Shown piece by piece: positions 1-15,325 of a stretch of 15,565 bases of DNA (the first letter of the stretch is position 1; every line of letters starts with the position of its first letter). Made by a program: the position numbers and the translations under genes. Below the pieces are notes generated by a model. That model was given only the letters and a program-made list of their open reading frames with translations, ran no database searches and was not told the origin of the DNA. The DNA is from an uncultured Peptostreptococcaceae bacterium (GTDB lineage: Bacteria > Bacillota > Clostridia > Peptostreptococcales > Anaerovoracaceae): contig CAJOQI010000094.1 of the NCBI GenBank assembly GCA_905236895.1, positions 1 to 15,565 of the forward strand. The letters run 5' to 3'.

Positions 1-2
1 AG

Positions 3-521
3 ATGAGAGTCCACGACAATATGGGCGCTGCCCTCATTGCGGCAAAGATGTTTATCTTAAACGACGATAGCCCCGTTACTCCCGAAGAAGTGCTTTTCCA
101 GTGGGAGGACGATATGGTTCTGATGAGAGAAGAACCGCTTAAGGAACAGAAGGAAACAAGCCAGATTCAGAGACTGGAGGATGCAGCCAAATTCCTTGGA
201 ATCGAGCTCCAGCTTGTGGGAGAAATGCCTTCCAATTACGCGGTTATGAACCTTATCTGTACGGGCATTCAGGAGTGCATGACCAATGCGATTCAACATG
301 CGGAGGCAACTCAGATGTATGTAGCCATATCCAAGGACGACTTGGAATATCAGGTAAGCTTCAGCAATAACGGAAAACCGGTGGTGGGTGAAATCAAGGA
401 AGGAAGCGGAATGACCATATTGAGGGAAAGCGCGGAAAAACTCGGTGCCACCATGGAATATAAAGAAAGCTTGAGATTTAATTTGATTCTACATATACCT
501 TTGCCTGAAAAGGATGTATAG
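3..521 (+). CDS. Sensor histidine kinase, NarX/LiaS-like, C-terminal part (5' truncated by window)
   Basis: This is the end of a cytoplasmic kinase core that autophosphorylates on His and passes the phosphate to a response regulator. The frame is already open at the window edge, and the first Met lies inside the phospho-acceptor box (MRVHDNMGAAL), so the true start lies upstream. The phospho-His is residue 4 of the visible part. The arrangement HDxxG is typical of HisKA_3 kinases, which pair with NarL-type regulators. An HATPase_c domain follows: N-box around ECMTNAIQHA (residues about 91-100), then NNGKP and a G-box GSGMTIL near the end. The G1 motif reads NNG rather than DNG, which is tolerated in this family. 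The NarL-type regulator 46 bp downstream is the obvious partner. The sensor region is outside the window, so the signal is unknown. Confidence 0.85.
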   Translation: MRVHDNMGAALIAAKMFILNDDSPVTPEEVLFQWEDDMVLMREEPLKEQKETSQIQRLEDAAKFLGIELQLVGEMPSNYAVMNLICTGIQECMTNAIQHAEATQMYVAISKDDLEYQVSFSNNGKPVVGEIKEGSGMTILRESAEKLGATMEYKESLRFNLILHIPLPEKDV

Positions 522-530
522 ATGTATAAT
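501..530 (+). promoter_or_regulatory. Candidate internal promoter for the NarL-type regulator
   Basis: TTGCCT at 501-506 and a perfect TATAAT at 525-530 are separated by 18 bp. They overlap the last codons of the kinase gene and lie about 40 bp before the regulator start. The regulator could therefore be transcribed alone as well as with the kinase. Seen by eye only. Confidence 0.4.
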
Positions 531-567
531 GGTAGTATAGTGTAACGCAGTTTATCAGGAGGGAAAG

Positions 568-1206
568 ATGTACAATGTTCTTGTGGTCGAAGACGACCCG
601 ATGACCAGACAACTTCTGGAAATGTTTATAGAGAGAAGTGATGACTATAGCTTGGCTGCATCGATTGATGATGCGGAGTTTGCGCCGCTCTATTGCTCAA
701 GAAACGATATTGACCTGGTGCTGATGGATATCAGAACAGCAATGAGAGCAAACGGGCTGGACGCAGCGGAAATAATAAAGCAGCGTCATCCTCAGGTCAA
801 AGTTATTATTTGCACTTCCATGCCGGAGTTCTCATATCTTCAGAGAGCAAAGGAAATAGGTGTGGACAGTTTTTGGTATAAGCAGGTTGTGGAGGACGAA
901 TTCTTTGATCTCATGGACAGAACCATGGCAGGAGAGCATATCTTCCCGGATTCCACGCCGGAGCTTACCCTGGGAAAGGCCAAGAGCAGCGATTTTACAG
1001 CGAGAGAGTTGGAAATCTTGAGAGAGCTCATGTCCGGAGACAGCAATCAGGAGATTGCCGACAGGCTTTCCATCTCCGTAAGTACCCTGAAGACCCATAT
1101 CCAGAACCTTCAGGAGAAAACAGGATACAGAAACCGTACAGAGCTTGCAATTAGGGCCAGAGAGATAGGTTTGGTAATAAATGACGCTGCTGCGAAGCAG
1201 GAATAA
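568..1206 (+). CDS. Response regulator, NarL/LuxR family
   Basis: This is a DNA-binding transcription regulator of 212 residues, the usual length for the family. The receiver domain (about 1-120) has the acidic pocket E8-D9-D10, the phospho-acceptor D54 (in LVLMDI), T83 and the conserved K105. A LuxR-type helix-turn-helix occupies about residues 145-205, with FTARELEIL, SNQEIADRLSIS and TLKTHIQNL as its hallmark pieces. AGGAGGGA lies 5-6 bases before the ATG and fixes the start. The gene follows a HisKA_3 kinase, the normal partner class. The receiver has an unusual TAMRANG stretch after D54 where family members more often have MPxxxG. Its targets cannot be read directly; the downstream coiled-coil and cell-envelope genes are candidates by position only. 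Confidence 0.93.
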   Translation: MYNVLVVEDDPMTRQLLEMFIERSDDYSLAASIDDAEFAPLYCSRNDIDLVLMDIRTAMRANGLDAAEIIKQRHPQVKVIICTSMPEFSYLQRAKEIGVDSFWYKQVVEDEFFDLMDRTMAGEHIFPDSTPELTLGKAKSSDFTARELEILRELMSGDSNQEIADRLSISVSTLKTHIQNLQEKTGYRNRTELAIRAREIGLVINDAAAKQE

Positions 1207-1308
1207 TTAATCAAAAAAATAGTACTTTAGGTCGGTGCACAAACATACAAATATATGATAGAGTATGTGCATAAAGAGATGCAGGATGCACTGAGGCAGG
1301 GGGTTCAT

Positions 1309-1677
1309 ATGAATGAAAGTGATCTGCAACAATTGAATAGAGATGAGCTTCTATCCATGTTGCTTACCGTAAGCCAGCGGTGCGATAATCTTGAAAAGCA
1401 GCTTTCAGAGGCGAAAAAGCTGATGAAGGACACCAAGGATATTTCAGAATACGCAGGCCCCGTTACGGATTTGCTGGAGGCCACAAGAAGTAAATGTGCC
1501 GCCATGGAGTCTGAAGCAAAGACAAGATGTGACCAAATGATTGAAAGGGCACAGGCTGAGTCCCAAAGCTATTGGGATGAGGTATATAGCCGTATCAGAA
1601 GATACAGCAAAGCCACAGAGTCCCTTAAGGACATAGTGGCAGAACTGGTTCCCGTGGGAGATTCGGGAAACAAATAA
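1309..1677 (+). CDS. Small coiled-coil protein, function unknown
   Basis: This encodes a 122-residue soluble protein with no signal peptide or membrane segment. The composition is highly charged and helical: LNRDELLSMLLTVSQRCDNLEKQL (about residues 8-31) starts a coiled coil, and a second helix with repeated Ala/Glu/Arg heptads covers about 52-85. The start was placed at 1309 because AGGCAGGGGG lies just upstream; the in-frame ATG at 1255 has no convincing ribosome site. The gene sits between a two-component system and a secreted pseudo-CHAP protein, with only 51 bp to the latter, so it is probably co-transcribed. The N-terminal pattern resembles small DivIVA- or scaffold-like helical proteins I associate with Clostridia, but I cannot assign a family. 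Confidence 0.7.
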   Translation: MNESDLQQLNRDELLSMLLTVSQRCDNLEKQLSEAKKLMKDTKDISEYAGPVTDLLEATRSKCAAMESEAKTRCDQMIERAQAESQSYWDEVYSRIRRYSKATESLKDIVAELVPVGDSGNK

Positions 1678-1728
1678 GACGAGAATTAAAGCGAGAAAGA
1701 TTAAGATAGTTATTGCGAGAGGATATTC

Positions 1729-2946
1729 GTGAAAAGAATCAAAGTAAGAAAGATAATAGGAAGACTGATAGCTCTTATCATATGCATTCCGCTTTTGACA
1801 GGATCTTTGGCTGTGGCAGCTTTCGCTTTTGACGGAGCTTTGGATGCGGGAAGCACTCCTGCAGAGATTGAAGCGCCCCAGGATAAGGGTGATGCTGAAG
1901 CCACGGATGATACTGCCGAAACTGTTGCTGAAGAAGCAGCTGAGGATTTGAAGGCGGAAGTTAAGGATGCTGCCGAAGAACCCGTTGCAGAGGAGCCAAA
2001 GGAAGAGGCAGAAGCCAAACCCGAGGGAGAAGCTGAGGAAGTAAAGGCTGATTCCGGAAGCGAGGCAGCAAAGGAAGAGACCAAGGAAGAACCAAAGGCA
2101 GAAGCAGTAGAAGAAAACAAAGAAGCAGCTGATAATACCGCAGAGGTTAAAGAAGCCGAGAAGAAGGCTAGGGAAGATGCTGACAAGAAATACGAAAGAG
2201 CTCTTTCAAAGCCAAAGCTAACGGGGGACCTTAATAAGGACCTTTTCGCGGTAGCTTTAAGTCAGGTAGGACGTGAAGAAGCATGGAATAACCAGTTTGT
2301 GATTCGTCTTCTGGAAATCGCCCAGGTAAAGGATGTTAAGATCAATTCCGCCGGCCTGGATAAGTGGATTGAGGATATTACAAAGGAAGAAGCCAAGTCT
2401 ATCGAAGCCATCCAGAAGAATCTGGAGCTGGCGGCAAAGGGTAAGGAAACTCAGGTAGTTAAGCTGGTAAGCTATAGACATTATGACTACTATGATGCAA
2501 GCCTTTCCGATTTGGTATTCTTCACAGCAAACGAGAATGGGAAGCCCGTTCTTAAGATTGGCATCTACTCCGAAAACAATTTCAAGAAGGACAGCAAGGG
2601 CGTAGCCAATCATAAAAAAGGAACAGTAACCCTCATTACCGGAGACGAAAAGGGTAATGTAGTGGAGAAGGAATACTATGTTGTAGATGGATTTGACAAG
2701 AATGACAATCCTCTTGAAATCCACGCAGCAGAGGAAAAGGAAGAAATGGAAAAGGCTAAAGCGAATATATCCAAGGCTTTGTTCCTTTCCGAAAAAGAAA
2801 TTGTGATCGACGGAGTGGTTTCCGTCAAGGCCGAAGAGTTTGCCATCAAGGCAGCTGAGAATGTGGAGCCTGAAGTAGAGCAACCTGAGGAAAAACCAGT
2901 GACAATTAAGCCAATGGAGAAAACAATTCCCGAAAGTTTGCTATAA
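1729..2946 (+). CDS. Secreted protein with Glu/Ala-rich linker and degenerate CHAP/NlpC-like domain
   Basis: This is a 405-residue protein with a GTG start preceded by GAGAGG. Residues 1-33 form a Sec signal peptide: a basic N-terminus, a hydrophobic core IALIICIPLLTGSLAVA, then AFA. Residues about 45-158 are a low-complexity acidic Ala/Glu/Lys linker. Residues about 165-320 follow the layout of a CHAP/NlpC-P60 amidase: DLFAVALSQVG helix, W186 with FV..L two residues on, a SLSDLVFF strand, a K-I-G-I strand, and GTVTLITGDEKGN. The catalytic positions do not match: the Cys expected after W186 is N187, the His of the usual HVGI is K276, and the polar residue of the usual EGN is replaced in TGD (304-306). 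I infer a secreted, catalytically dead domain, perhaps a wall-binding or regulatory protein. No LPxTG anchor or C-terminal membrane helix is visible. The domain call rests on pattern memory, not a search. Confidence 0.7.
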   Translation: MKRIKVRKIIGRLIALIICIPLLTGSLAVAAFAFDGALDAGSTPAEIEAPQDKGDAEATDDTAETVAEEAAEDLKAEVKDAAEEPVAEEPKEEAEAKPEGEAEEVKADSGSEAAKEETKEEPKAEAVEENKEAADNTAEVKEAEKKAREDADKKYERALSKPKLTGDLNKDLFAVALSQVGREEAWNNQFVIRLLEIAQVKDVKINSAGLDKWIEDITKEEAKSIEAIQKNLELAAKGKETQVVKLVSYRHYDYYDASLSDLVFFTANENGKPVLKIGIYSENNFKKDSKGVANHKKGTVTLITGDEKGNVVEKEYYVVDGFDKNDNPLEIHAAEEKEEMEKAKANISKALFLSEKEIVIDGVVSVKAEEFAIKAAENVEPEVEQPEEKPVTIKPMEKTIPESLL

Positions 2947-2972
2947 ACACTAATCTTTCTCATATATTCTGC

Positions 2973-3021
2973 GTAAAAGCTGTAATGGATGCCTTTTTAG
3001 GAATCCCTTGCAGCTTTTTAC
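2973..3021 (+). terminator. Terminator-like hairpin after the pseudo-CHAP gene
   Basis: GTAAAAGCTG (2973-2982) pairs with CAGCTTTTTAC (3011-3021). Inside it, GGATGCC (2987-2993) pairs imperfectly with GGAATCC (3000-3006) around a T-rich loop. The T-rich descending arm suggests intrinsic termination. The A-rich ascending arm could also serve the other strand. Confidence 0.55.
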
Positions 3022-3047
3022 TTTATGGTGTGTTGAGGTAAAAACTC

Positions 3048-3075
3048 TTGTTACTTTCATGAAAAAATGTAACAA
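3048..3075. promoter_or_regulatory. Inverted repeat upstream of the S11-like gene
   Basis: TTGTTAC (3048-3054) and GTAACAA (3069-3075) form a perfect 7-bp dyad around a 14-base spacer that itself begins with TTTCATGAAA. The left arm resembles a -35 box and TATAAA follows at 3076-3081, although the spacing is long (22 bp). A repressor or activator site about 45 bp before the next gene is possible; the protein is unknown. Confidence 0.35.
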
Positions 3076-3118
3076 TATAAAGAGAAGATTTCTTATAGGG
3101 AAGACTTCGGAGGTGGAA

Positions 3119-4252
3119 ATGGAAAAACTAAAATGCAATGCTGCGGTCCTCTATGATTTGACAGAGGATAAGATAATAAAAGAGTATAACGAGGATGAAC
3201 AGATGGATGTGGCAGGCCTTGAGGAGGTCATGACAGCTGTTGTGGTTCTGGATTGTTGTAGCAATTTGGATGATGAATTCAAGGTTTCCGATAGAGAGGG
3301 ATCCGCCCGTTACCAAAGCCTGGTGAAGGGAGATAGCCTTAAACCCGGTGAAGAGGTAAAGGTAAAGGATGCTCTTGAATATATGCTTTTAACATCCGCC
3401 CAGGAAGCGAAGGATGCTATCCAGGTTGAATTCGGTGGGTCCATGGCGGACTTCAGGAAACTGATGAATTTTGTTGCCAAGGAACTAAAAATGGACGATA
3501 CCTATTATAGCGAAGAAGGTTGCAAATCCACCGCCCTTGATCAGCTTAAACTCTTAAGGAAGGCCATTGGGATGGAGAAATTCATTGAACTGGCCTCCAA
3601 GGATGAGGGTATTATTGGGGAGTCAAAGCATAGAAAAAAAGCCTATGAATACCACAATCTTAATGAAATGGCAGACTTCCCCAATGAGGTTAGAGTCCTT
3701 AAGCGAGGATTCAAAAATGAAGCGGGAAGCAGCCTTGCTGCAGTGATCAGAAAGGGTGACAAAGACTATCTTGCCATTCTTCTTGGTGGCGGAAAGGAAG
3801 AGGAATTGCTTCATGATATGAATATCTTCCTGGAAGAAGTCAGTGAGCCCCAGGTTGATTTGGACTATAGAGACCTTATCAAATACGACAAAGGAGCCAG
3901 AAAGAAAACCAGGGAGAAATTGAGGAAGGAATTCCTTGGTGAAGAAGAGGCTGAAGTCAGAGAGATAAAAGCAGAAATCGGAGAGGCAGCATATGCAGAG
4001 CCTGAAGAAGTCGGATATATAGATGAGAATGAGGATTTATCCGAATACGAAACCCTTTTAGATGAGGATATGCCGGAGGCAGAGGTAGAAACAAAGCATC
4101 CCTTAAGAGAAAAGGCTGCAGGTCTAATCGGGAGAAGAGAGTCCGGGTCTTTGGTTCTGGAGAAGGAGGATGTTATTCCTGCCGCTGCGGCGGTAGCTGT
4201 TGGAATAATAGCTGTAGGACTTCTTGCCGTCAGAAAGAACTTAAAGAAATAA
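3119..4252 (+). CDS. S11 D-alanyl-D-alanine carboxypeptidase homologue, catalytically degenerate, C-terminal membrane anchor
   Basis: This encodes 377 residues. GGAGG at 3109-3113 sits five bases before the ATG and sets the start; upstream in-frame codons to 3008 add no signal peptide. Residues about 5-225 follow the DacA/PBP5 fold closely, but all three active-site motifs are changed. SxxK reads G33-L-E-E36 in the otherwise conserved context AGLEEVMTA. SxN reads S93-A-Q95. KTG reads K195-R-G197, in the context LKRGF...EAG. The usual SLKPGE, GGS..F..LMN and AKEL.M..T landmarks are present. Residues about 270-350 are an acidic linker, and 353-371 a single hydrophobic helix followed by RKNLKK. 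Known members cleave the terminal D-Ala of peptidoglycan stem peptides; this one should not form an acyl-enzyme. Its location is uncertain because no N-terminal signal is visible. Confidence 0.82.
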   Translation: MEKLKCNAAVLYDLTEDKIIKEYNEDEQMDVAGLEEVMTAVVVLDCCSNLDDEFKVSDREGSARYQSLVKGDSLKPGEEVKVKDALEYMLLTSAQEAKDAIQVEFGGSMADFRKLMNFVAKELKMDDTYYSEEGCKSTALDQLKLLRKAIGMEKFIELASKDEGIIGESKHRKKAYEYHNLNEMADFPNEVRVLKRGFKNEAGSSLAAVIRKGDKDYLAILLGGGKEEELLHDMNIFLEEVSEPQVDLDYRDLIKYDKGARKKTREKLRKEFLGEEEAEVREIKAEIGEAAYAEPEEVGYIDENEDLSEYETLLDEDMPEAEVETKHPLREKAAGLIGRRESGSLVLEKEDVIPAAAAVAVGIIAVGLLAVRKNLKK

Positions 4253-4277
4253 GCTTTGAAAAAAACATGATGCAAAG

Positions 4278-4314
4278 AAAAAACCGAGGAAACGGATATG
4301 GTTCCTCGGTTTTT
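4278..4314. terminator. Bidirectional intrinsic terminator between convergent genes
   Basis: CCGAGGAA (4284-4291) pairs with TTCCTCGG (4302-4309). An A-run (4278-4283) lies before it and a T-run (4310-4314) after it. It can end transcription from the S11-like gene on the plus strand and from the thrH-like gene on the minus strand, which converge here. Confidence 0.88.
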
Positions 4315-4341
4315 CCATGAAAGGGTAGTTTCAAAGGCGAC

Positions 4342-4947
4342 CTATAGGCCAAGTGCCCCCTTGATATAACCCATGAGATCCTCATAGGTTTCACAAGAGA
4401 GAAGGTCCGGATTTTCAGCTTTGATTGTATCCGTGCTTCTGAAAAGGATACCGAGCTTACTTTCCTTTAGCATTTCCAGGTCGTTATAACTATCTCCCAT
4501 AGCAATGGTATCGTAGCCCATTGCGTGGAAGCCTTTGACGGTAGAATATTTGGATCGGTCGATTCGCATATTGAAATCCTCAATCATGCCATCTTCGCCG
4601 ATTACCAATTCGTTGCAGAGAAGGGTGGGATATCCCAGTTTTGCCATTAAGGGCATTCCGAATTGAGTAAAAGTATCGCTTACGATTACTACCTGAGCAA
4701 AGCTTCTCAGTTCGTCCAGGAATTCCTTGGCCCCGGGAAGGGGATCGATTCCGGAAATCGTATCCTGGATTTCTTTGATTCCATAACCCTTTTCACGAAG
4801 AATATTGATGCGATATTTCATCAATTTATCGTAGTCGGGCTCTTCTCTGGTAGTGATTTTAAGTTCGGGGATTCCGCTTTCTTCCGCGAAGGCCACCCAG
4901 ATTTCCGGAACCAGGATGCCTTCCAAGTCACTGCAAACAATATACAT
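4342..4947 (-). CDS. thrH: ThrH-type HAD phosphatase (phosphoserine phosphatase / homoserine phosphotransferase)
   Basis: This is a 201-residue cytosolic HAD hydrolase, full length for ThrH. Motif I is D7-L-E9-G, with the nucleophile D7 followed by the ThrH signature LVPEIWVAFAEESGI. TTREEPDYDKLM then matches the ThrH cap region. Motif II is S90 in VIVSDTF, motif III is probably K133 or K138, and motif IV is GDSYND (151-156). The Pseudomonas ThrH hydrolyses phosphoserine and can move the phosphate to homoserine, linking serine and threonine synthesis; the same activity is inferred here. AGAGAGGA lies six bases before the ATG. The gene stands alone on the minus strand, with its own promoter and a shared terminator, so it is not obviously tied to its neighbours' functions. 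Confidence 0.92.
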   Translation of the reverse strand: MYIVCSDLEGILVPEIWVAFAEESGIPELKITTREEPDYDKLMKYRINILREKGYGIKEIQDTISGIDPLPGAKEFLDELRSFAQVVIVSDTFTQFGMPLMAKLGYPTLLCNELVIGEDGMIEDFNMRIDRSKYSTVKGFHAMGYDTIAMGDSYNDLEMLKESKLGILFRSTDTIKAENPDLLSCETYEDLMGYIKGALGL

Positions 4948-4982
4948 GGTTTTCCTCTCTAATCAATTAAAGTGATAAAATT

Positions 4983-5011
4983 ATTATCCACATAAGGAGG
5001 TCCTTTGTCAA
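4983..5011 (-). promoter_or_regulatory. Promoter of the thrH-like gene
   Basis: On the minus strand a perfect TTGACA (5011-5006) and GATAAT (4988-4983) are separated by exactly 17 bp, about 36 bp before the start codon. A short inverted repeat, AAGGA-GG-TCCTT (4994-5005), lies within the spacer. Confidence 0.82.
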
Positions 5012-5030
5012 GATGATAGGCTCTTGATTT

Positions 5031-5060
5031 TTTACCTTAACCTCACTACTATGATATAAT
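5031..5060 (+). promoter_or_regulatory. Promoter of the sirtuin-like gene
   Basis: TTTACC (5031-5036), an 18-bp spacer and a perfect TATAAT (5055-5060) preceded by TGA, which makes an extended -10. It lies about 42 bp before the start codon and diverges from the thrH promoter. Confidence 0.7.
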
Positions 5061-5101
5061 TTGGCTGTAATAATGCAAGAAAAAAGAGAAATGGATGGAT
5101 T

Positions 5102-5935
5102 ATGGGTTACGAAGTAATGATTGATCTTAAACAAGCTATAGAAGAGGCGGAAGTTATTGTAATAGGTGGAGGAGAGGGATTATCCCTTGCCGCCTTTGGT
5201 GACAGTGAGGAAAGGTTTGGAAAATACTTTGCAGACTTTAAGGGTCAGTATGGTTTTTCTTCAATGAAGGCAGGGATCACATATCCCTTTGCTTCTTCGG
5301 CGGAACGTTGGGCATATTGGTCCAGATATATATTCGTCAATAGATATATGAATCCCTATAGGCCGGTGCTGGAGAAACTCCTTGCCTTGGTTAAGGACAA
5401 AGCCTATTTCGTAATAACCACAACCACGGAATATGTTTTCCAGAAGGCAGGATTTGATAATAATAGAATATTCCCCTGGGCAGGTGACCTGGGTCTTTGG
5501 CAGTGCAGCGAGCCTTGCCATACCAAGACCTACGAAAACTATTATCAGGTTAAGGAAATGCTCCTTGCTCAAGGATTTAAGTTTGAGGATGGAGACAGAT
5601 TGGAAATTCCTCTGGGAGGAACGGTTTTGGATAGCTATCTCAGAACTACCATACCGGATGATCTTATTCCGAGATGTCCAATTTGCGATAAGCCAATGTC
5701 CATGCATCTTAAAAGGAGTGGGAACTTCTTGGAGGACGAGGCATGGCAGACTGCCTCCCGGCGTTACGAAGATTTCCTTGCCAGAAACAGGAATAAGAGA
5801 ACTTTGTTCCTTGAAATAGGCGAGGGGCCGGAAGCGGTGAAGATAATCAAAGAGCCCTTCGAAGAAATGGCCAAGGAGTGGGCCGACGCAAGTCATATCA
5901 CTGTGGCACCGGGAGAGATTTTAAGTAATCTTTAA
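5102..5935 (+). CDS. SirTM-class Sir2 (sirtuin) homologue with altered active site
   Basis: This is a 277-residue cytosolic protein related to Sir2 NAD-dependent deacylases/ADP-ribosyltransferases. The NAD-binding start is IGGGEGLSLAAFG (residues 21-33), a variant of GAGxSxAAG. ERFGKYFADF and WAYWSRYI match the SirTM subclass, and the zinc site is C135-x3-C139 with C192-x2-C195. The catalytic region reads ITTTTEYVFQKAGFD where SirTM proteins have TTNxDHxFQKAGFD: the Asn is T108 and the His is Y111. Nineteen residues later A127 stands in front of GDLG where Gln is expected. From memory, Asn and Gln spaced by 19 are the key catalytic pair in characterised SirTMs, so both appear lost here. No macrodomain, GcvH-like or lipoate-ligase gene is nearby, unlike classical SirTM operons. 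The start is a weak call, since the ribosome site is poor; Met6 is an alternative. The stop codon lies inside the operator array of the next operon. Confidence 0.82.
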   Translation: MGYEVMIDLKQAIEEAEVIVIGGGEGLSLAAFGDSEERFGKYFADFKGQYGFSSMKAGITYPFASSAERWAYWSRYIFVNRYMNPYRPVLEKLLALVKDKAYFVITTTTEYVFQKAGFDNNRIFPWAGDLGLWQCSEPCHTKTYENYYQVKEMLLAQGFKFEDGDRLEIPLGGTVLDSYLRTTIPDDLIPRCPICDKPMSMHLKRSGNFLEDEAWQTASRRYEDFLARNRNKRTLFLEIGEGPEAVKIIKEPFEEMAKEWADASHITVAPGEILSNL

Positions 5936-5962
5936 GTAGGTTTTAAGTAGTCTTCTTATTAT
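5920..5962 (+). promoter_or_regulatory. Three TTTAAGTA direct repeats plus -10 box: operator/promoter of the response regulator operon
   Basis: TTTAAGTA occurs at 5920-5927, 5931-5938 and 5942-5949, an exact 11-bp period, followed by a TATTAT -10 box at 5957-5962. No good -35 is present; the repeats occupy that place, as in PhoB/VanR-type activated promoters. The array overlaps the stop codon of the sirtuin-like gene. The -10 box starts 31 bp before the regulator ATG. The same layout recurs before the VTC gene (8021-8075). Confidence 0.82.
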
Positions 5963-5987
5963 TAAGAAAAAGGAGACGGAGGCGTTT

Positions 5988-6671
5988 ATGAGAATACTTC
6001 TTGCTGAAGATGAAAAGCTTTTATCAGATGCTTTGGTGGAGCTGCTTAAACATAATAATTATTCCGTGGATGCGGTCTATGATGGAGAAGATGCCATAGA
6101 CTATTTGCTTACGGGAGATTATGATGCCGCCATTCTTGACATCATGATGCCCAAAAAGGATGGAATCACGGTGGTAAAGGAGTTGAGGGCCGCAGGCTTT
6201 ATGACTCCTGTTCTTATGCTGACGGCAAAGTCTCAGATTGAGGACCGTGTAGAAGGCCTTGATAGCGGCGCAGACGATTATTTAACAAAGCCCTTCGCCA
6301 TGGCGGAGCTTCTTGCCAGGGTTAGGGCTATCACAAGACGCCAGCCGGAAATGGCAGGAACCAGCCTGGAGTTTGGAGACCTTACCCTAAAGAGAGATGA
6401 CTATAGCTTATCGGGGCCCAATGGGGAAATAAGGCTGGCAAACAAAGAGTATCAAATCATGGAGATGCTCATGACCAATTCCGGAAAAGTAATCCCCACG
6501 GAAAGGTTCATGGAAAAGGTATGGGGTTATGACAGCGACGCGGAAATAAATGTTGTCTGGGTAAATATATCGGGACTTAGAAAGAAAATCGCTGAGCTGG
6601 GTGCAGCAGTGCAGATAAAGGCCGCAAGAGGAGTTGGATATAGCTTGGAGGCTATAGATATAGATGGTTGA
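5988..6671 (+). CDS. Response regulator, OmpR/PhoB family
   Basis: This is a 227-residue DNA-binding regulator. The receiver domain (1-118) has E7-D8, the phospho-acceptor D51 in LDIMMPKKDG, T79 and K101 (TKPF). The OmpR winged helix covers about 125-222, including NKEYQIMEML, VWGYDSDAE and the recognition-helix pattern VWVNISGLRKKI. AAGGAGACGGAGG precedes the ATG. The last bases overlap the kinase start (ATGGTTGA), so the two are translationally coupled. OmpR-family regulators bind short direct repeats in tandem, and such repeats lie before this gene and before the VTC-domain gene. I infer positive autoregulation and control of the VTC/DUF4956/lipoprotein operon. Confidence 0.95.
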   Translation: MRILLAEDEKLLSDALVELLKHNNYSVDAVYDGEDAIDYLLTGDYDAAILDIMMPKKDGITVVKELRAAGFMTPVLMLTAKSQIEDRVEGLDSGADDYLTKPFAMAELLARVRAITRRQPEMAGTSLEFGDLTLKRDDYSLSGPNGEIRLANKEYQIMEMLMTNSGKVIPTERFMEKVWGYDSDAEINVVWVNISGLRKKIAELGAAVQIKAARGVGYSLEAIDIDG

Positions 6672-7971
6672 TAAGCTTAGGAAAAGAGTAATTCTATATA
6701 CAGTCATAGCTGTTGCCCTGGTGCTTCTTCTTTTGATGGGAATTGTCAACGGGGTTAATTTTGCTACCAAGGATAAGGCAGCAAGCCAAATGCTGGAATT
6801 TTTGGCGGAAAACGGAGGAACTTTCCCGGGCAGGCGTGGAGATGGCGTTACTCCCGATATGGGGGAATGGCCTGATGATCAAATAATGGACGACTATTGG
6901 GATCAGGGAGATTTATGGGATGATTTCATCGGAGGAGAACCCTGGAAGAAGAGACCCGGCATGACGGAAGAAACTCCCTATGAAACAAGATTCTTTACCG
7001 TCGATCTTAAGGAGGACAGGACGGTTAAGTCGGTTAATACGGGAAAGATTGCAGCAATAGACAGCAGTCAGGCTGTGGAAATGGCGGAGAAGATAGAAGC
7101 CTCAGGCAAAACCAAGGGTTACGAAGGCAACTATAAATATCTTGTAACGGAGATAGAAGGTGGAAAGAGATTCATATTTGTGGATTGCACCAGAGATCTT
7201 CAGTCCGTAAAGGACTTCTTAAAGACTAGCGTTCTGGTATCTCTTCTCGGGCTGGCAGGTATTGCCCTTTTGGTAACCATTCTTTCGCCTAAGATGGTTA
7301 GGCCTATTGCGGAAAGCTATGCCAAACAAAAAGAATTCATTACCAACGCGGGACATGAACTTAAAACCCCTATGACTGTAATCGAATCCTGCACGGAGGT
7401 TTTGGAATTGGAAGGGGGAGAGAATAAATGGACCAAGGGTATCAAAGAGCAGGTTGAGAAGCTATCCAATCTAACGAGCCATATGGTTGCATTGGCCAAG
7501 ATGGACGAAGGCAGAACCCTTGCCATGAAAGAGGTGAATCTTTCTCGCTTGGTAGAGGACACCTTGGAGGGATTCAAGCTTGGAGCTGAGCAACAGGGAC
7601 GCGAAATCCAAAGCAAGATTGAAGAAGATATAAGCATTAAAGGAAACGAAACCCTTCTTGCGGAACTGGTTTCCATATTGGCGGACAATGCTCTTAAATA
7701 TGGCAGCCCTGATAAGCCCATTATCTTTGCTCTTGAAAAGCAAGGAAAGAAAATAGTCTTAAGAGAAGAAAACTTTGCCGAAGGAATCGAAAAGGGAAAT
7801 CACAAAGAGTTCTTTGATAGATTCTATAGAGGGGATACATCTCACAACAGCGAGAAACCGGGAAGCGGCATAGGTCTATCCATAGCAGAGTCCATTGTCA
7901 CATCCCATGGGGGAGGAATAAAAGCAGAGAGCCCCGACGGAGAAAGATTTGTTATAACCGCAACCTTCTAA
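6664..7971 (+). CDS. Membrane sensor histidine kinase partnered with the OmpR-type regulator
   Basis: This is a 435-residue two-pass membrane kinase. TM1 is about residues 9-30. An extracytoplasmic sensor of about 155 residues follows, and TM2 is about 189-208. The HisKA box has H231 in NAGHELKTPM. HATPase_c follows, with N-box N342 (DNALKYG), FFDRFYRGD and G2 box GSGIGLS (400-406). The G1 box is the NFAEGI form seen in a Clostridia subfamily instead of DxGxG. The sensor loop has a striking acidic/aromatic patch at about 71-94 (DDQIMDDYWDQGDLWDDF), which might bind cations or cationic peptides; that is inference. The gene overlaps the regulator by 8 bp and ends before a strong terminator. Confidence 0.93.
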   Translation: MVDKLRKRVILYTVIAVALVLLLLMGIVNGVNFATKDKAASQMLEFLAENGGTFPGRRGDGVTPDMGEWPDDQIMDDYWDQGDLWDDFIGGEPWKKRPGMTEETPYETRFFTVDLKEDRTVKSVNTGKIAAIDSSQAVEMAEKIEASGKTKGYEGNYKYLVTEIEGGKRFIFVDCTRDLQSVKDFLKTSVLVSLLGLAGIALLVTILSPKMVRPIAESYAKQKEFITNAGHELKTPMTVIESCTEVLELEGGENKWTKGIKEQVEKLSNLTSHMVALAKMDEGRTLAMKEVNLSRLVEDTLEGFKLGAEQQGREIQSKIEEDISIKGNETLLAELVSILADNALKYGSPDKPIIFALEKQGKKIVLREENFAEGIEKGNHKEFFDRFYRGDTSHNSEKPGSGIGLSIAESIVTSHGGGIKAESPDGERFVITATF

Positions 7972-7996
7972 GAATAGAGAAATAAAGTGAGATTAT

Positions 7997-8018
7997 GCCG
8001 GGATTTCCCGGCTTTTTT
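7997..8018 (+). terminator. Intrinsic terminator after the two-component operon
   Basis: GCCGGGA (7997-8003) pairs with TCCCGGC (8006-8012) and is followed by six T residues. It separates the regulator/kinase operon from the repeat array that drives the VTC operon. Confidence 0.88.
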
Positions 8019-8020
8019 AT

Positions 8021-8075
8021 TTTAAGTAAGAATTAAGTAAAAGTTTAAGTAAGTTTTAGGTTATGTCCTTATGAT
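8021..8075 (+). promoter_or_regulatory. TTTAAGTA repeat array plus -10 box: operator/promoter of the VTC operon
   Basis: The core repeats are TTTAAGTA at 8021-8028, ATTAAGTA at 8032-8039, TTTAAGTA at 8044-8051 and a degenerate TTTAGGTT at 8055-8062, with steps of 11, 12 and 11 bp. A TATGAT -10 box lies at 8070-8075. The last repeat starts 15 bp before the -10, exactly as at the regulator promoter (5942 to 5957), and the -10 lies 30 bp before the ATG at 8100. There is no canonical -35, consistent with an activator-dependent promoter. Confidence 0.82.
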
Positions 8076-8099
8076 GTGAATATCAAAAGGAGACAAAGA

Positions 8100-8966
8100 A
8101 TGGAAAAGATAGTAAATGTTTTCGCAAGACACGAAATAAAATACCTGCTGGATGCGGATATGCGTAAAAAGGTGATGGAGGGAATCAAGGATCGTATGAT
8201 TCCGGATCCCCACGGCATGAGCACCATCAGAAATATATACTACGACACCCCGGATTATAGACTCATTAGAAGGTCTCTTGAAAAGCCAAAGTATAAGGAG
8301 AAGATGAGACTAAGAAGCTATGGAAGGCCCAATGAGGATACGGTGGTATTCCTGGAGATGAAAAAGAAATACGACGGGGTCGTATATAAGAGAAGGGTGG
8401 AGCTTAAAGAAAAGGATGCCACAGCCTATATGGCAGGAGAGATAGGTTTTGAAGAAATGCAGGAGAGAATTGTGGACATATCCAATACTCAGATAGCAAA
8501 GGAAATTGACTACTTCAAGAACTATTACGGCAATCTTAAGCCCATGGTATTTCTCAGCTATGACAGATGTGCCTATTTCTCCGAAGAGGATGAAAGCCTG
8601 AGAATAACCTTTGATAAGAATATAAGGTGGAGAGGAAATGATGTAAGGCTCACCGCAGAAGGCGGAGGAGAGGATCTCCTGAAAGAAGGGGAAAGCCTTA
8701 TGGAAATAAAGACAGCTTCGGCACTTCCCATGTGGTTGGTGGAGGTGCTGAGCAAAGTGGGAGCAAGACCCGCAAGCTTTTCCAAATACGGAAATGCTTA
8801 CAGAAGTATAGTTGAAAGAGAGGATGAAACAAATGACAAATATATTTGGCAGCATATTTACGGGGAACGACTTAACTCTGACGGGGTTCATTATCAGCCT
8901 GGTAGCAGCCTTGGTGCTTGGAGCGGTAATAGCCTTGGTTTATTCGTACCACACAGCTCACTCTAA
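8100..8966 (+). CDS. VTC-domain protein (polyphosphate polymerase-like)
   Basis: This encodes 288 residues from the ATG at 8100, which is set by AGGAG at 8088-8092; an in-frame GTG at 8076 would precede the predicted transcript start. The VTC fold, a triphosphate-tunnel domain that makes or binds polyphosphate, is well preserved: RHEIKYLL (10-17), YYDTP (47-51), K68-x-R70-x-R72 (KMRLRSYG), VFLEMKKK (83-90), a YKRR strand, LSYDR (152-156), LRITFDKNI, LMEIKTA (200-206) and the terminal SKYGNAY (228-234). No membrane segment is visible, so it is cytosolic, probably acting with the DUF4956 membrane protein that follows. The last 54 residues after KYGNAY look unlike the family and are encoded partly by DNA that also encodes the next gene (134-bp overlap). 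Bacterial VTC/DUF4956 pairs are known, but their role is not established. Confidence 0.88.
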   Translation: MEKIVNVFARHEIKYLLDADMRKKVMEGIKDRMIPDPHGMSTIRNIYYDTPDYRLIRRSLEKPKYKEKMRLRSYGRPNEDTVVFLEMKKKYDGVVYKRRVELKEKDATAYMAGEIGFEEMQERIVDISNTQIAKEIDYFKNYYGNLKPMVFLSYDRCAYFSEEDESLRITFDKNIRWRGNDVRLTAEGGGEDLLKEGESLMEIKTASALPMWLVEVLSKVGARPASFSKYGNAYRSIVEREDETNDKYIWQHIYGERLNSDGVHYQPGSSLGAWSGNSLGLFVPHSSL

Positions 8967-9513
8967 TGGATTTCTTGTAACTGTAGCCCTTCTTCCGGCT
9001 ATCGTGGCAGTAATAATTATGATGGTTAACGGAAGCATAGGAGCCTCAGTTGCGGTAGCGGGAACCTTCTCCCTGGTAAGATTTCGTTCCGCACCGGGAA
9101 CTGCAAGGGAAATCTGTGCAGTATTCCTGGCCATGGCTGTAGGTCTGGCTTGCGGAATGGGTTATGTGGCCTTTGGTGCAATATTCGCTGTAATCCTGGC
9201 TCTCATAACTGTCATCTACGATAGAGTCGGATTCCTGGAAAAGAGAGACGGAGGTCTGCAGAAAGTGCTTAAGGTGACTGTACCCGAGGATTTGGACTAT
9301 GAAGGAATGTTTGACGATATATTTCAGCAGTATACATCAGATGCAAAACTTACCAGTATTAAAACCAGCAATCTTGGAAGTCTGAACAAGCTTAATTATC
9401 AGGTAACCATGAAGAAGACGGGAACGGACAAGGCATTTATAGACGACTTGAGGTGCAGAAACGGAAATTTGGAAATCAGCCTTGCTATGTTGGCGGATAC
9501 AAGCGAACTATAG
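8833..9513 (+). CDS. DUF4956 integral membrane protein
   Basis: This encodes 226 residues from the ATG at 8833 (AGAGAGG at 8817-8823, 9 bp upstream); TTG at 8812 and ATG at 8824 are less likely. The N-terminal half is hydrophobic, with membrane segments at about 17-38, 46-66, 96-113 and 115-130. The DUF4956 signature GxFSLVRFRSA (77-87) and GLACGMGY (104-111) are visible. The C-terminal 90 residues are a soluble domain, likely cytoplasmic. DUF4956 proteins regularly accompany VTC-domain proteins; a transporter or flippase-like partner is a guess. The start lies inside the upstream gene, and 32 bp separate its stop from the lipoprotein start, so the three genes form one operon. Confidence 0.88.
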   Translation: MTNIFGSIFTGNDLTLTGFIISLVAALVLGAVIALVYSYHTAHSNGFLVTVALLPAIVAVIIMMVNGSIGASVAVAGTFSLVRFRSAPGTAREICAVFLAMAVGLACGMGYVAFGAIFAVILALITVIYDRVGFLEKRDGGLQKVLKVTVPEDLDYEGMFDDIFQQYTSDAKLTSIKTSNLGSLNKLNYQVTMKKTGTDKAFIDDLRCRNGNLEISLAMLADTSEL

Positions 9514-9545
9514 GGATTAAGATGAAGAATAACGGAGGGTTAGTG

Positions 9546-11096
9546 ATGAAAAGAAAACTTGTAATATATATACTTGCGGCCTTGATGATAGGCCTGCTGG
9601 CCATGGGCCTATCCTCCTGCGGCAGCAGTTCCGCAAAAACGGAAGCTGCCGATCAGGATAATATAAAAGAAGGGGACGATGAGTCCGAAACTGCTCAGGA
9701 TGCAGAGAATACTGAAGGAGGCGAAGCGGCGGAGAAGGAGGAATCCACTGAAGCTGCCGGGGAGGCATCCAATGGAGCAAGCGGAGAGGCAAAGGAATAT
9801 GAATACACCGGTGCCGTCCCCGAAGGTTTTACGGAAAGAGACTTTGATATAGGATACTCCGATTACGAAACTGTAAATCTGTCTTCTCTTAAGGAAGACA
9901 CCTATTCCATAACCCAAGCTGGTAATTATCTGCTTAGCGGGGACTACGAAGGACAGATAGTAGTCGACGTTCCGGGAAAGGAAGACAAAGTTCAAATTAT
10001 ACTGGATAATGCCAATATCACCAACGACTCCAGCGCAGCTATTTACGTACTAAGTGCAGATAAGGTCTTTTTTACCACAACGGCAGGTTCTGTGAATAGG
10101 ATTTCCACAACGGGAACCTTTGTTCAGACAGACGAAAACGAGGTGGACGGTGCGATTTTCTCCAAGGACGATATAGTGTTTAACGGGGAAGGAACTCTCG
10201 TAATAAGCTGCGACCAGGGACACGGAATCGTATCAAAGGACAATCTAAAGATAACCAGCGGAACATATGAAATTACTGTAGGAGCAAAGGGATTAAGTGC
10301 AAACGATTTGCTGGCTGTTGCAGGAGGAGATATTTCAATCATCTCGGGAGATGATGGAATAAACTCCGACCTATACGCCACTTTAATCGACGGAAATATT
10401 ACCATTGAGGCTCAGGGAGATGGTGTTCATGCAGATGCCATAGTAACTGTAGATGGAGGAGCTTTAGACATAAATGCTTCTGAGGGTCTTGAAGGTACAG
10501 TGGTTAGAGTAAACGACGGAGATGTTAATATCTACGCATGGGATGATGGAGTTAACGCTTCACAGAAGGTAACAGACTATGATCCTACCATAGAGATAAA
10601 CGGAGGCAATCTCGCTATTGAGATGGCAGGTGGAGATACGGACGCTCTGGATAGTAACGGATATATCTATATCAACGGAGGCACAGTGAACATAAAGGCT
10701 CAGTTTGCATTCGACTACGAATGGGATGGAGTCATCACAGGTGGAGAAGTTTATGTTAACGGCGAGCAGGTAACGGAAATATATAATTCCATGATGGGAG
10801 GAGGCGGCCACTGGGGATCCCAAGGAGGACCGCAGGGGGGAATGCATGGAGGTATGCCCGGTGGAAGCCAGGGTAGTTCCCAATGGGGTCAGGGAGGACC
10901 ACAGGGGGGAATGCCTGGAGGTATGCCAGGCGGCAGCCAGGGCAGTTCCCAGTGGGATCCGGGTAGCGGTGAAAGCGGATTTCCGTGGGATTTCCAAGGG
11001 GGATCAAAGCCTGATGCAACAAGCGGGGCAACCCAGAATGGTGGAGAGGGCGACTCTCAAAGTGAAGAGTCCTCCGAAAATGACAGTATGGTATAA
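9546..11096 (+). CDS. Cthe_2159-type (DUF4353) carbohydrate-binding lipoprotein
   Basis: This encodes 516 residues. GGAGGG six bases before the ATG at 9546 sets the start. The signal peptide ends in a lipobox, L22-S-S-C25, so the protein should be lipid-anchored on the outer face of the membrane. An acidic linker (about 30-85) is followed by a right-handed beta-helix-like domain (about 110-415) of short repeating strands: INGG/VNDGD turns and several DDG or GDG corners (DDGIN, GDGVHADA, WDDGVNAS). This matches the Cthe_2159 family, of which the Clostridium thermocellum member is reported to bind acidic plant polysaccharide. The tail (about 417-516) is Gly/Gln/Met/Ser-rich with a 23-residue tandem repeat. 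It is the last gene of the VTC operon, just before a terminator. Its ligand is unknown; cell-surface polysaccharide or matrix is plausible. Confidence 0.88.
   Translation: MKRKLVIYILAALMIGLLAMGLSSCGSSSAKTEAADQDNIKEGDDESETAQDAENTEGGEAAEKEESTEAAGEASNGASGEAKEYEYTGAVPEGFTERDFDIGYSDYETVNLSSLKEDTYSITQAGNYLLSGDYEGQIVVDVPGKEDKVQIILDNANITNDSSAAIYVLSADKVFFTTTAGSVNRISTTGTFVQTDENEVDGAIFSKDDIVFNGEGTLVISCDQGHGIVSKDNLKITSGTYEITVGAKGLSANDLLAVAGGDISIISGDDGINSDLYATLIDGNITIEAQGDGVHADAIVTVDGGALDINASEGLEGTVVRVNDGDVNIYAWDDGVNASQKVTDYDPTIEINGGNLAIEMAGGDTDALDSNGYIYINGGTVNIKAQFAFDYEWDGVITGGEVYVNGEQVTEIYNSMMGGGGHWGSQGGPQGGMHGGMPGGSQGSSQWGQGGPQGGMPGGMPGGSQGSSQWDPGSGESGFPWDFQGGSKPDATSGATQNGGEGDSQSEESSENDSMV
10821..10958 (+). 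repeat. 69-bp tandem duplication in the lipoprotein tail
   Basis: Two copies of a 23-codon unit (QGGPQGGM[H/P]GGMPGGSQGSSQW plus one residue) lie at 10821-10889 and 10890-10958. The DNA copies differ at several third positions, so the duplication is not very recent. The unit also contains an internal GGMxGGMPGG repeat. Confidence 0.85.
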
Positions 11097-11123
11097 AAAA
11101 TTATAAAAAATCATAAGCCTCAA

Positions 11124-11153
11124 GGCCGTCGCATCTGCGGCGGCCCTTTGTTT
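11124..11153 (+). terminator. Intrinsic terminator after the lipoprotein operon
   Basis: GGCCGTCGC (11124-11132) pairs with GCGGCGGCC (11137-11145), with one G-T pair and loop ATCT, followed by a T-rich stretch, CTTTGTTTAT. Confidence 0.82.
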
Positions 11154-11172
11154 ATAGGAAAAGTGAATATGT

Positions 11173-11201
11173 TAGACAATTAATCATTTCCATATTATAA
11201 T
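11173..11201 (+). promoter_or_regulatory. Promoter of the diguanylate cyclase gene
   Basis: TAGACA (11173-11178), a 17-bp spacer and a perfect TATAAT (11196-11201), about 45 bp before the start codon. Confidence 0.78.
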
Positions 11202-11250
11202 TAGCTTGCACTATGCAGAATAAAAAAGAGATTGAGGGTGGTAATTGAAT

Positions 11251-12882
11251 ATGAATATTCAAAACTATGATTCCAAAACTGTGGAATTGATCGAGAAGGT
11301 ATTCGAACAGAAGCGTTTAATGGACGAAGACATTTTTAATACACTTCCCGTGCTTTTGGAGCGTGCACAGGAATTGGAGGACTATACTCTCCAAGGATTC
11401 GCTCACTTCCACATAGCGGATGCATATTTTGCTTTTGAGAAAGGCTATAAGAAATTCCGAGAGAATCTGGCCAGATGTATTTACTGCTTTAACCTGGGCG
11501 GAGAAAAGGAGCTGTTGACAAGGGCATATAATTTTGTTGCCATTGACGCTCTGAATAACGGAAGCTTTGATGTAGCCTATTTTTATTTAATGAATGCCAT
11601 GCAGACCTGCGAAGGAACGGAAAATAACTATCTGCTCAGCATGTTAAACCATAATATTGGTCAGGTCTTTGCCAGAATGCACAGTTTTGACAAGGCCGTT
11701 GGATATGTGAGGCTGGGGACTGAGTTTCAGCTTCTCTGTCCTGCCGACGATTTTTATTATTATCAGAATCTTACGAATGGTTATTTTTCCGAAGGGGTCA
11801 TCCACGCTTTGATGGGCAATGTGGAAGGAGCCAAGGCTGCGGATAGAGAGATAGCTAGGCTGGAGAATGAAACTGATGTTTCCAATAATCCCAGCGTATT
11901 TATACCGATCATTCTTCTCAGGATTATGATTGCAATCCTCGAAGGGGACGAGGAGGAATACGAGGTAAAAAGCAGGGAACTTATCGAAAAGCTCAGAGAG
12001 TCCCACCGCATATATGATTTCATTACGGATATTGAGGATCTATGCAACTTCCTTTTGGAGAAGAACCATATGGATACGGTGGGGGAAATCCTTTCCATCA
12101 TCAAGGATACGGTTGCAGATACGGATGTGGTGCAGATGCAGAAGATCGTTTCATCCATAGAGGTTGCTTATTATGACAAGCTGGGTGATGCGGAGAAGGT
12201 AAATGAATGCCTGAGGGAGCAGTATCATCTCTCCAAGCAACAGCAGATGGAGCAGAACCGTATCTACCAATACTCTATAGACTTGATTAACAGCATGGAT
12301 GAACAAAGGAAGGAACAGGAGAGAGTTCGTCTTGAGAACGAGTATCTCCAGTCCCAGGTTCAGACGGATCCATTGACGGGTATACCAAATAGATTCATGT
12401 TGGATAGCACAATTCCTCAGTTCTTAGAGGAAGCCAAGAAGGAAGGCAAGTCCTTCGCCGTATCCCTTATGGATATTGATAAATTCAAGCAGTATAACGA
12501 TACCTATGGCCATCTGGATGGCGACATATGCCTGCAGAAGGTAGCAAAGGCCATAGAGAAGGTTTCCGATAGACCGGGAGTCTCTTGCGCTCGTTACGGC
12601 GGCGACGAATTCATCATGCTCTATTGCAATAAGACCGACGAAGAGATAATGAAGATTGCCGCGGAACTTAAGGAAGAGATCAAAGCTCTCAATATTCCCC
12701 ACAGTGCCATGGGAGAGGGTGGATGCGTATCCCTTTCTCAGGGAATCTGCAATGATATTCCAAGGAGTGAGCATAAACATGGTGACTATTTGAACGAAGC
12801 GGACAATGCTCTCTATGTGGTGAAGAAGAGAATGGATTCACCGGGAAAGAAGGAAACCTTTAGGCTGGTACATTTGCCATAG
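11251..12882 (+). CDS. Diguanylate cyclase with helical (TPR-like) N-terminal region
   Basis: This is a 543-residue cytosolic protein with no signal or membrane segment. The C-terminal GGDEF domain (about 370-535) makes c-di-GMP from GTP. DPLTGIPNR (373-381), D408 in SLMDID, KxYNDTYGHLDGD and an intact GGDEF (450-454) are present, so it is likely active. The product-inhibition I-site RxxD is not present at the usual place (R441-P-G-V444). Residues about 15-330 are a series of paired helices with TPR-like spacing, for example A..YF.LM.A and HNIGQVFARM..F.KAV. Residues about 330-370 are a coiled coil that probably joins dimers. The N-terminal part presumably senses a protein or small ligand. 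The start was taken as ATG at 11251; TTG at 11245 has slightly better spacing to GAGGGTGG and would add two residues. The gene is monocistronic, with its own promoter and terminator. Confidence 0.92.
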   Translation: MNIQNYDSKTVELIEKVFEQKRLMDEDIFNTLPVLLERAQELEDYTLQGFAHFHIADAYFAFEKGYKKFRENLARCIYCFNLGGEKELLTRAYNFVAIDALNNGSFDVAYFYLMNAMQTCEGTENNYLLSMLNHNIGQVFARMHSFDKAVGYVRLGTEFQLLCPADDFYYYQNLTNGYFSEGVIHALMGNVEGAKAADREIARLENETDVSNNPSVFIPIILLRIMIAILEGDEEEYEVKSRELIEKLRESHRIYDFITDIEDLCNFLLEKNHMDTVGEILSIIKDTVADTDVVQMQKIVSSIEVAYYDKLGDAEKVNECLREQYHLSKQQQMEQNRIYQYSIDLINSMDEQRKEQERVRLENEYLQSQVQTDPLTGIPNRFMLDSTIPQFLEEAKKEGKSFAVSLMDIDKFKQYNDTYGHLDGDICLQKVAKAIEKVSDRPGVSCARYGGDEFIMLYCNKTDEEIMKIAAELKEEIKALNIPHSAMGEGGCVSLSQGICNDIPRSEHKHGDYLNEADNALYVVKKRMDSPGKKETFRLVHLP

Positions 12883-12909
12883 AGGGAAGAATAGTACAAG
12901 TATAAAGAG

Positions 12910-12936
12910 GCTCAGAGCGTTGACTCTGAGCTTTTT
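12910..12936 (+). terminator. Intrinsic terminator after the diguanylate cyclase gene
   Basis: GCTCAGAG (12910-12917) and CTCTGAGC (12924-12931) form a perfect 8-bp stem with loop CGTTGA, followed by five T residues. Confidence 0.9.
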
Positions 12937-12980
12937 CCGTTGTGGCGGGTTATATATTGGTGAAAAAACAGATGGATCTG

Positions 12981-12989
12981 TGATAGAAT
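12981..12989 (+). promoter_or_regulatory. Possible extended -10 promoter
   Basis: TGATAGAAT is an extended -10 (TG-N-TAGAAT) about 60 bp before the small membrane-peptide ORF. No -35 lies at normal spacing; TTGGTG at 12957-12962 is 21 bp away. Weak call. Confidence 0.3.
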
Positions 12990-13049
12990 AAAAATAGATA
13001 TTATAGCTATGACTTATTTGTATTCATTTGCGGAAAGGGCATAAATAGC

Positions 13050-13139
13050 ATGAACAAAAAATTTCTTATAATTGTAGCCATTCTTGCAGTGATTCTGGTT
13101 TTATTATTTGCCATTCCCACTATTTATGGTGGCAGATAG
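13050..13139 (+). CDS. 29-residue single-pass membrane peptide, possibly a truncated gene
   Basis: This is a 29-codon ORF: MNKK, a hydrophobic helix of about 18 residues (FLIIVAILAVILVLLFAI), then PTIYGGR and a stop. GGAAAGGG lies about 10 bases upstream. It could be a genuine small membrane protein. It could also be the front end of a longer Clostridial family that starts with a similar helix and continues with a short extracytoplasmic tail containing DGG; the tail breaks off at GGR here. It is followed by a broken phosphotransferase gene, which favours decay. Confidence 0.4.
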   Translation: MNKKFLIIVAILAVILVLLFAIPTIYGGR

Positions 13140-13154
13140 CCTGAATATATAGAG

Positions 13155-13905: not shown

Positions 13906-13963
13906 ACAGATAATGATGCCCTTGGCTTTTGGGCTATGAAAACACCGGTGGAGGAGGGATAGA

Positions 13964-15324: not shown

Positions 15325-15325
15325 A

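Follow-up and report, generated by a model that had tools for sequence, protein, structure and literature searches.

A CiaR-like response regulator is predicted to control its own gene and a VTC–DUF4956–Cthe_2159 operon in Clostridia through tandem TTTAAG boxes

Which regulator controls the operon that joins a VTC-domain protein, a DUF4956 protein and a Cthe_2159-type lipoprotein, and do two promoters carrying the same short repeats form one regulon? The question is raised by contig CAJOQI010000094.1 (assembly GCA_905236895.1) of an uncultured Peptostreptococcaceae bacterium, of which nucleotides (nt) 1 to 15,565 were analysed and are hereafter called the window. An OmpR/PhoB-type response regulator gene and the VTC gene of the operon are each preceded by a repeat array, and the original prediction held that the regulator activates both itself and the operon. 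Judging from sequence comparisons, it is very probable that the OmpR/PhoB-type regulator at 5988-6671 works as a CiaR-like activator via these boxes, switching on both its own gene and VTC–DUF4956–Cthe_2159. The features on which the argument rests are the following.

5920..5949, plus strand: regulator-side array, three exact copies of the half-site TTTAAGTA, at 5920, 5931 and 5942, spacing 11, 11
5957-5962, plus strand: putative -10 box (TATTAT) for the regulator gene, without a -35
5988..6671, plus strand: OmpR/PhoB-type response regulator, receiver and winged-helix DNA-binding domain (Pfam PF00072, 104.5 bits; PF00486, Trans_reg_C, 73.6 bits)
6664..7971, plus strand: partner sensor histidine kinase, HisKA and HATPase_c (Pfam PF00512, PF02518)
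7997..8012, plus strand: terminator-like hairpin GCCGGGATTTCCCGGC then TTTTTTATTT (pattern scan, consensus match only)
8021..8062, plus strand: VTC-side array, TTTAAGTA at 8021, ATTAAGTA at 8032, TTTAAGTA at 8044 and TTTAGGTT at 8055, spacing 11-12-11
8070-8075, plus strand: putative -10 box (TATGAT) for the VTC operon, without a -35
8100..8966, plus strand: VTC-domain protein, polyphosphate-polymerase type (Pfam PF09359, 164.4 bits)
8836..9513, plus strand: DUF4956 protein (Pfam PF16316; start inferred)
9546..11096, plus strand: Cthe_2159-type carbohydrate-binding lipoprotein (Pfam PF14262)

Direct reading placed every repeat of both arrays where it had been predicted; relative to TTTAAGTA, ATTAAGTA (8032) has one mismatch and TTTAGGTT (8055) has two. 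The final repeat begins 15 nt 5′ of the -10 box at both promoters, and the -10 box begins 31 nt before the ATG of the regulator gene (5988) and 30 nt before that of the VTC gene (8100), again as predicted. The 11-bp period that the arrays were said to share holds on the regulator side (11, 11) but not on the VTC side, where the spacing (11-12-11) is not uniform. Neither promoter has a good -35, as had been claimed: the hexamers at a 17-nt spacer are AAGTAG and AAGTAA, and a sigma-70 scan found no plus-strand site at either array promoter and one minus-strand consensus match, at 5946-5918. The dyads 5931+5942 (regulator) and 8044+8055 (VTC) both end 9 nt before the -10 box, an interval of the CiaR type. 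The open reading frame (ORF) upstream of the regulator gene ends inside the second regulator-side repeat (5931), with its stop codon at 5933-5935. The terminator-like hairpin at 7997-8012 stands between the kinase and VTC genes and would separate their transcription units, so that transcription of the VTC gene would be expected to require a separate promoter; the pattern scan that detected it found 12 sites in the region against 5.8 expected.

In sequence, both promoters have the layout of class II promoters, with a predicted -10, no -35, and a box over the -35 region at a fixed distance. In the class II promoters of PhoB and PhoP, tandem repeats replace the -35 region beside the -10, and the letters of those boxes differ from the TTTAAG box; the window regulator, at 167.3 bits, also falls below the NCBIfam PhoB equivalog cut-off of 296.2. 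Since the box covers the -35 region, the regulator might instead repress one or both promoters by occupying it, and for CiaR, too, one operon under negative control, manLMN, is reported in the part of PMC8317062 that deals with it. We regard repression as improbable. The lack of a -35 element at either promoter means that a factor seems needed, and the gap of 9-10 nt between box and -10 approximates the ten nt with which CiaR-driven RNAs were searched for; in the relevant part of PMC3091779, the promoters of those RNAs yield the consensus of strongly CiaR-activated promoters. Activation rather than repression is what the position of the box and the analogy with CiaR suggest.

We then asked whether the box is a regular feature of VTC promoters. 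A VTC protein search gave matches in 71 of 197 genomes of the family, from which 49 of the 50 non-window places with E below 1e-20 were taken, leaving out the second G064 copy, which starts at its contig's first base. The best 80 of at least 575 confirmed relatives from named genomes, nearly all Clostridia, were added, giving 130 VTC loci including the window, of which 128 extend 160 nt or more upstream of the gene. A box was called when at least 10 of 12 letters matched and a -10 followed; the boxes of relatives were searched for, and found, at 9-10 nt from the -10. Box and -10 were present in 70 of the 128 upstreams, against a mean of 0.4 and a maximum of 2 in 40 rounds of shuffling at the same composition. 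The counts shift with the threshold, to 46 at 11 or more letters and 17 for a perfect box. Upstreams of other ORFs (at least 150 aa) from the same loci had box and -10 in 5 of 1818 cases, and these five also lie in regulator-VTC clusters. At L256 and L276 the box stands between the regulator and VTC genes, and at L063 it lies some 1.3 kb upstream of the regulator gene. At L059 (near 10261) and L070 (near 1570; both coordinates with VTC on the plus strand), box and -10 directly precede a DUF4956 gene standing apart from VTC, and the VTC gene of L070 is itself without a box. When tandem hexamer pairs with a -10 were sought without fixing their letters beforehand, the best pair was of TTTAAG, TTTCAG or TTCAA type in many loci; in others it was unrelated or of low complexity, or there was no pair. 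The box recurs across many Clostridia, largely from gut and rumen, and the form in which it would work is TTTAAG-N5-TTTA(A/G)G with a gap of 9-10 nt to the -10.

Within the window's genus, 8 of the 9 main VTC orthologs have the box. The form TTTAAG-N5-TTTAGG is found in the window, G261, G259 and G264, and variants of it in G144, G175, G258 and G260; the G265 promoter has no box at the threshold, and G262 has one at a contig edge. None of the four remoter VTC copies from the genus (L163, L164, L165 and L166) had it. Because the genus promoters keep TTTAAG-N5-TTTAGG or its variants, 8055 is the conserved proximal half-site, and the predicted conserved working dyad at the VTC promoter is 8044+8055. 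The fourth VTC repeat, which the original prediction had called degenerate, does carry two mismatches, but it is the promoter-proximal half-site and the best conserved in relatives. The proximal half-site may alternatively be read as TTTTAG with 10-bp spacing, which fits best in 11 of 73 promoters. Third half-sites 6-30 nt upstream in these 73 promoters numbered 30, of which 7 start at 12 nt and 7 at 23 nt; these two distances match the 11-12-11 register of the window and fit two dimers.

Some further genes and promoters deserve mention in their own right. Cthe_2159-type lipoprotein genes have box and -10 directly upstream at L111, L176 and L177, and a composite box precedes an alanine racemase-like gene (named by eye) at L127 and L137, from two genomes of one genus. 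Some boxless VTC promoters, L075, L077 and L082 among them, have TTTCACA-like repeats by eye; other OmpR-type regulators, at 31 and 33% identity, are encoded near L075 and L082, a possible regulator swap.

How common is the motif elsewhere? The source assembly has 1.37 Mb in 174 contigs and is 78.8% complete. Single copies of TTTAAGTA with up to one mismatch are about as frequent in the window as chance predicts (16 against an expected 15.7), whereas tandem pairs are enriched. The tandem pair TTTAAGTA-N3-TTTAAGTA with up to three mismatches matched 22 times in the whole assembly, against 33 for the reversed control; four of the 22 have 0-2 mismatches and all lie in the two arrays, and the other 18 have three. 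A composite pattern, TTAAG-N5-TTTARG-N9/10-TANNNT, matched only the two array promoters in the assembly (reversed control, 1) and 16 sites in the 13 genomes of the genus (control, 1), three of the 16 being one repeated sequence in G011. The genome-wide scan that the original prediction had proposed as a check came out in its favour, repeat pairs with up to two mismatches occurring at the two arrays alone. We saw no sign of a larger regulon in the 79%-complete assembly, and 'regulon' here means two promoters within it. Thirty loci were fetched from the composite scan, and 15 of these sites lie before VTC genes (L123 was counted as such for lying next to the VTC match in G135). A stricter pattern, TTTAAGTNNNNTTTAAGT, matched 13 times in the 197 family genomes, including twice in the window, at two VTC promoters and at one Cthe_2159-type promoter. 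The motif is thus not abundant in these genomes, and its position is what is special. A phage search with the regulator-gene promoter gave no match.

The repeats might also be AT-rich sequence without any regulator, such as curved DNA, an UP-element or remnants of a terminator T-tract. The VTC array does directly follow a terminator-like T-run, and single copies do occur at chance frequency. We give this reading next to no weight, given the 0.4 boxes of same-composition shuffles against the observed 70, the fixed spacing to the -10, and the co-change with the recognition helix described below.

To connect the box with a regulator, we examined linkage and co-occurrence. A linked relative of the window regulator (at least 45% identity) was found in 54 of the 130 VTC loci, lying upstream on the opposite strand in 25, upstream on the same strand in 20, downstream on the same strand in 8 and downstream on the opposite strand in 1. 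The box was present in 41 of the 54 loci with a linked ortholog, in 3 of 9 with another linked regulator and in 26 of 65 with none linked. A search of the family at E 1e-62 found the regulator in 40 of 197 genomes. In the resulting genome-level table, which counts the TTTAAG, TTTCAG and TTCAAG types together and skips two loci with short upstreams, the 47 usable family loci comprise 18 with regulator and box, 8 with the regulator only, 2 with the box only and 19 with neither (Fisher p 7e-5); two of the 8 regulator-only loci are the second VTC copies of G144 and G175. The regulator gene's own promoter carries the box in 6 of 10 same-genus regulators.

Recognition helices offered a further comparison. 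The helix of the window regulator is VVWVNISGLRKKI, and 52 of the 54 linked regulators had a readable helix, two being dropped as incomplete. Those with a WV helix stand beside VTC promoters with TTTAAG in 30 cases, TTTCAG in one and no box in eight. The EA..KK helix goes with TTTCAG in 6 of 6 VTC promoters, the second hexamer often being TTTAAG; EA..RK goes with TTTAAG in 4 of 4, and EV with TTCAA in 3 of 3. The regulators' own promoters, where they have a box, follow the helix class with one exception, L280: EA and EV regulators have the class-typical box in 12 of 13, and WV regulators have TTTAAG in 11, TTTCAG in one (L280) and none in 27. A regulator tree placed EA and EV together (99/99), and EA..RK (100/99) beside an EA..KK row within the EA group. 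This nesting suggests that the box went back to TTTAAG as RKK changed to RRK. Where the regulator is encoded on another contig than the boxed VTC gene and its helix could be read, helix and box agree in 4 of 5 cases (G021, G091, G098 and G148); G012 and G169, also with the regulator on another contig, have no box to compare.

These data bear on an alternative in which the boxes are read by some other OmpR-type regulator encoded in the genome and the position of the adjacent one is a coincidence. The genome holds 11 first-look candidates of this type, and the 26 boxed loci among the 65 without a linked regulator show that linkage is not required. At the genome level, however, the box goes with the clade of the adjacent regulator, and its letters follow the helix of that regulator, also in four of the five cases on other contigs. 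We therefore think it unlikely that a different regulator is responsible, and favour the adjacent one.

Several observations weigh against control of these boxes by the adjacent regulator. The box models were set after the alignments and data had been viewed. Across 349 genomes the composite pattern shows a modest excess (99 matches, 73 in the reversed control, summed by eye), and the 13 strict matches in the family compare with 17 in the control (control summed by eye). Two genomes counted as lacking the regulator are still boxed: G067, whose 47% relative narrowly misses the cut-off, and G125 (88% complete), with none at E 1e-40. Eight of the 39 WV loci with a linked regulator have no VTC box at the threshold, and the own-promoter box is present in 12 of 39 WV regulators and missing in 27. 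L268, the single WV locus with TTTCAG at its VTC promoter, breaks the helix rule, and G050, an EA regulator on another contig, has a VTC box typed TTTAAG. Finally, each helix/box class is a clade, so that the 52 readable helices represent about three events of co-change. Of the two activations originally predicted, that of the VTC operon is supported by box conservation, co-occurrence and helix/box co-change, whereas self-control is less conserved (6/10 in the genus, 12/39 with WV). Self-activation is well supported by sequence in the window, which has three perfect repeats, and is not a general property.

The window regulator would work like CiaR and PmrA. In the search described in PMC3091779, the CiaR box was TTTAAG-N5-TTTAAG with ten nt to TATAAT, and CiaRH feeds back on itself and negatively controls one operon in the account excerpted from PMC8317062. 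As far as these parts of the two papers go, streptococcal CiaRH shares with our system the hexamer and its 11-bp spacing, a gap of roughly ten nt between box and -10, self-feedback (predicted for the window) and an OmpR-type regulator. CiaRH differs in its host (CiaH homologues are confined to streptococci in the pertinent part of PMC3091779), in that the predicted targets in the window are VTC–DUF4956–Cthe_2159, and in that the link to HtrA is weak here. The helix of S. pneumoniae CiaR, as given in a passage of PMC3091779, is VVEVYVSKVRKKL, identical to VVWVNISGLRKKI at 7 of 13 positions; the window helix does not follow the CiaR pattern VVEVY(V/I)SK(V/I)RKKL, its position 3 being W. Acinetobacter PmrA binds the same box, TTTAAG-N5-TTTAAG, by gel shift in the experiments covered by an extract of PMC10927774, and YTTAAK repeats are typical of PmrA/BasR. 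The window regulator, at 176.7 bits, falls below the NCBIfam PmrA equivalog cut-off of 330, and the E. coli BasR helix TLEVHIHNLRDKV has 5 of 13 residues in common with it. As the helix differs from that of CiaR and the PmrA cut-off is missed, membership of neither group is claimed. The window regulator does have the receiver and Trans_reg_C winged helix of the OmpR/PhoB family; it reached no NCBIfam cut-off among the best 25 of 95 matches. Tandem direct repeats, the kind of site that this family binds, are present and co-vary with the helix.

Might HtrA be a target here too, as it is for CiaR? Among the composite matches were two htrA-type promoters, L173 (G246) and L175 (G032). With each side made up of the 30 top loci from a search of 40 genomes, the box (threshold 10) preceded htrA in 6 of 30 regulator-positive and 5 of 28 regulator-negative loci, and at threshold 11 in 5 and 1. 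G246 had been put on the positive side for its htrA match, its regulator (61%) being confirmed afterwards; without it, the positive counts are 5 of 29 and, at threshold 11, 4. In the window's genus no box of at least 10/12 was found in 13 htrA loci, three of them without the upstream part, and more box models with a different search span gave a box in 1 of 9. Since the box is not clearly commoner in regulator-positive genomes, HtrA is not claimed as a target. The htrA-type protease genes with a box are L173, L175, L300, L305 and L306.

The remaining features of the locus concern the operon and its surroundings.

5102-5935: ORF of 277 aa, no Pfam or NCBIfam match
11124-11145: terminator-like hairpin after the Cthe_2159-type gene (pattern scan)

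A GGDEF protein gene follows the Cthe_2159-type gene. The VTC and DUF4956 frames overlap by about 130 nt (8836-8966), and L053 has a comparable overlap. A second response regulator (568-1206) has a LuxR-like C-terminal look by eye, and the ORF beside it (3-521) resembles a kinase end. Polyphosphate-polymerase-like and DUF4956 genes also occur together as accessory genes of Pel clusters (DUF4956/poly-phosphate polymerase/CotH) in the section of PMC7112168 devoted to them, which mentions no regulator of the window kind. By contrast, Pfam found no Pel domain in 9 window proteins, and the third gene of the window is Cthe_2159 rather than CotH.

From the sequence we infer the following course of binding, phosphorylation and activation, with a second dimer and an envelope or surface function. 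The kinase (6664-7971) presumably phosphorylates the regulator (5988-6671), which would bind TTTAAG-N5-TTTA(A/G)G as a tandem dimer, at 8044+8055 before VTC and at 5931+5942 in its own promoter. The box would stand in for the missing -35, its last hexamer 9 nt before the -10, and the bound dimer would recruit RNA polymerase by class II activation. More regulator probably sits on the remaining half-sites, 5920 at its own promoter and, beginning 12 nt upstream of the dyad, 8021 and 8032 at the VTC promoter. The expected outcome is induction of VTC–DUF4956–Cthe_2159 and, in this organism, positive autoregulation.

Searches of one paper library found no description of the control of the VTC–DUF4956–Cthe_2159 operon, no paper joining the VTC domain and DUF4956, and none on helix/box co-evolution that combined all its terms. 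This would be a new regulon of a known kind of regulator, and it stands out by how widely it occurs in Clostridia and by the joint change of helix and box. It predicts which two-component system controls the VTC–DUF4956–Cthe_2159 operon across many Clostridia and gives a transcriptional handle on that operon, and the regulator/box pairs are a ready set for testing the joint change of OmpR-family helices and boxes. On balance we lean slightly towards the broader view of a widespread, hitherto undescribed CiaRH-like two-component circuit of Clostridia, with its own targets, that controls a polyphosphate/carbohydrate surface operon and whose regulator and boxes have switched together several times. 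If this is true, TTTAAG, TTTCAG and TTCAA(G/T) would form a natural series of regulator-DNA specificity switches, and the switch from TTTCAG to TTTAAG that accompanies EA..KK to EA..RK may rest on few helix residues.

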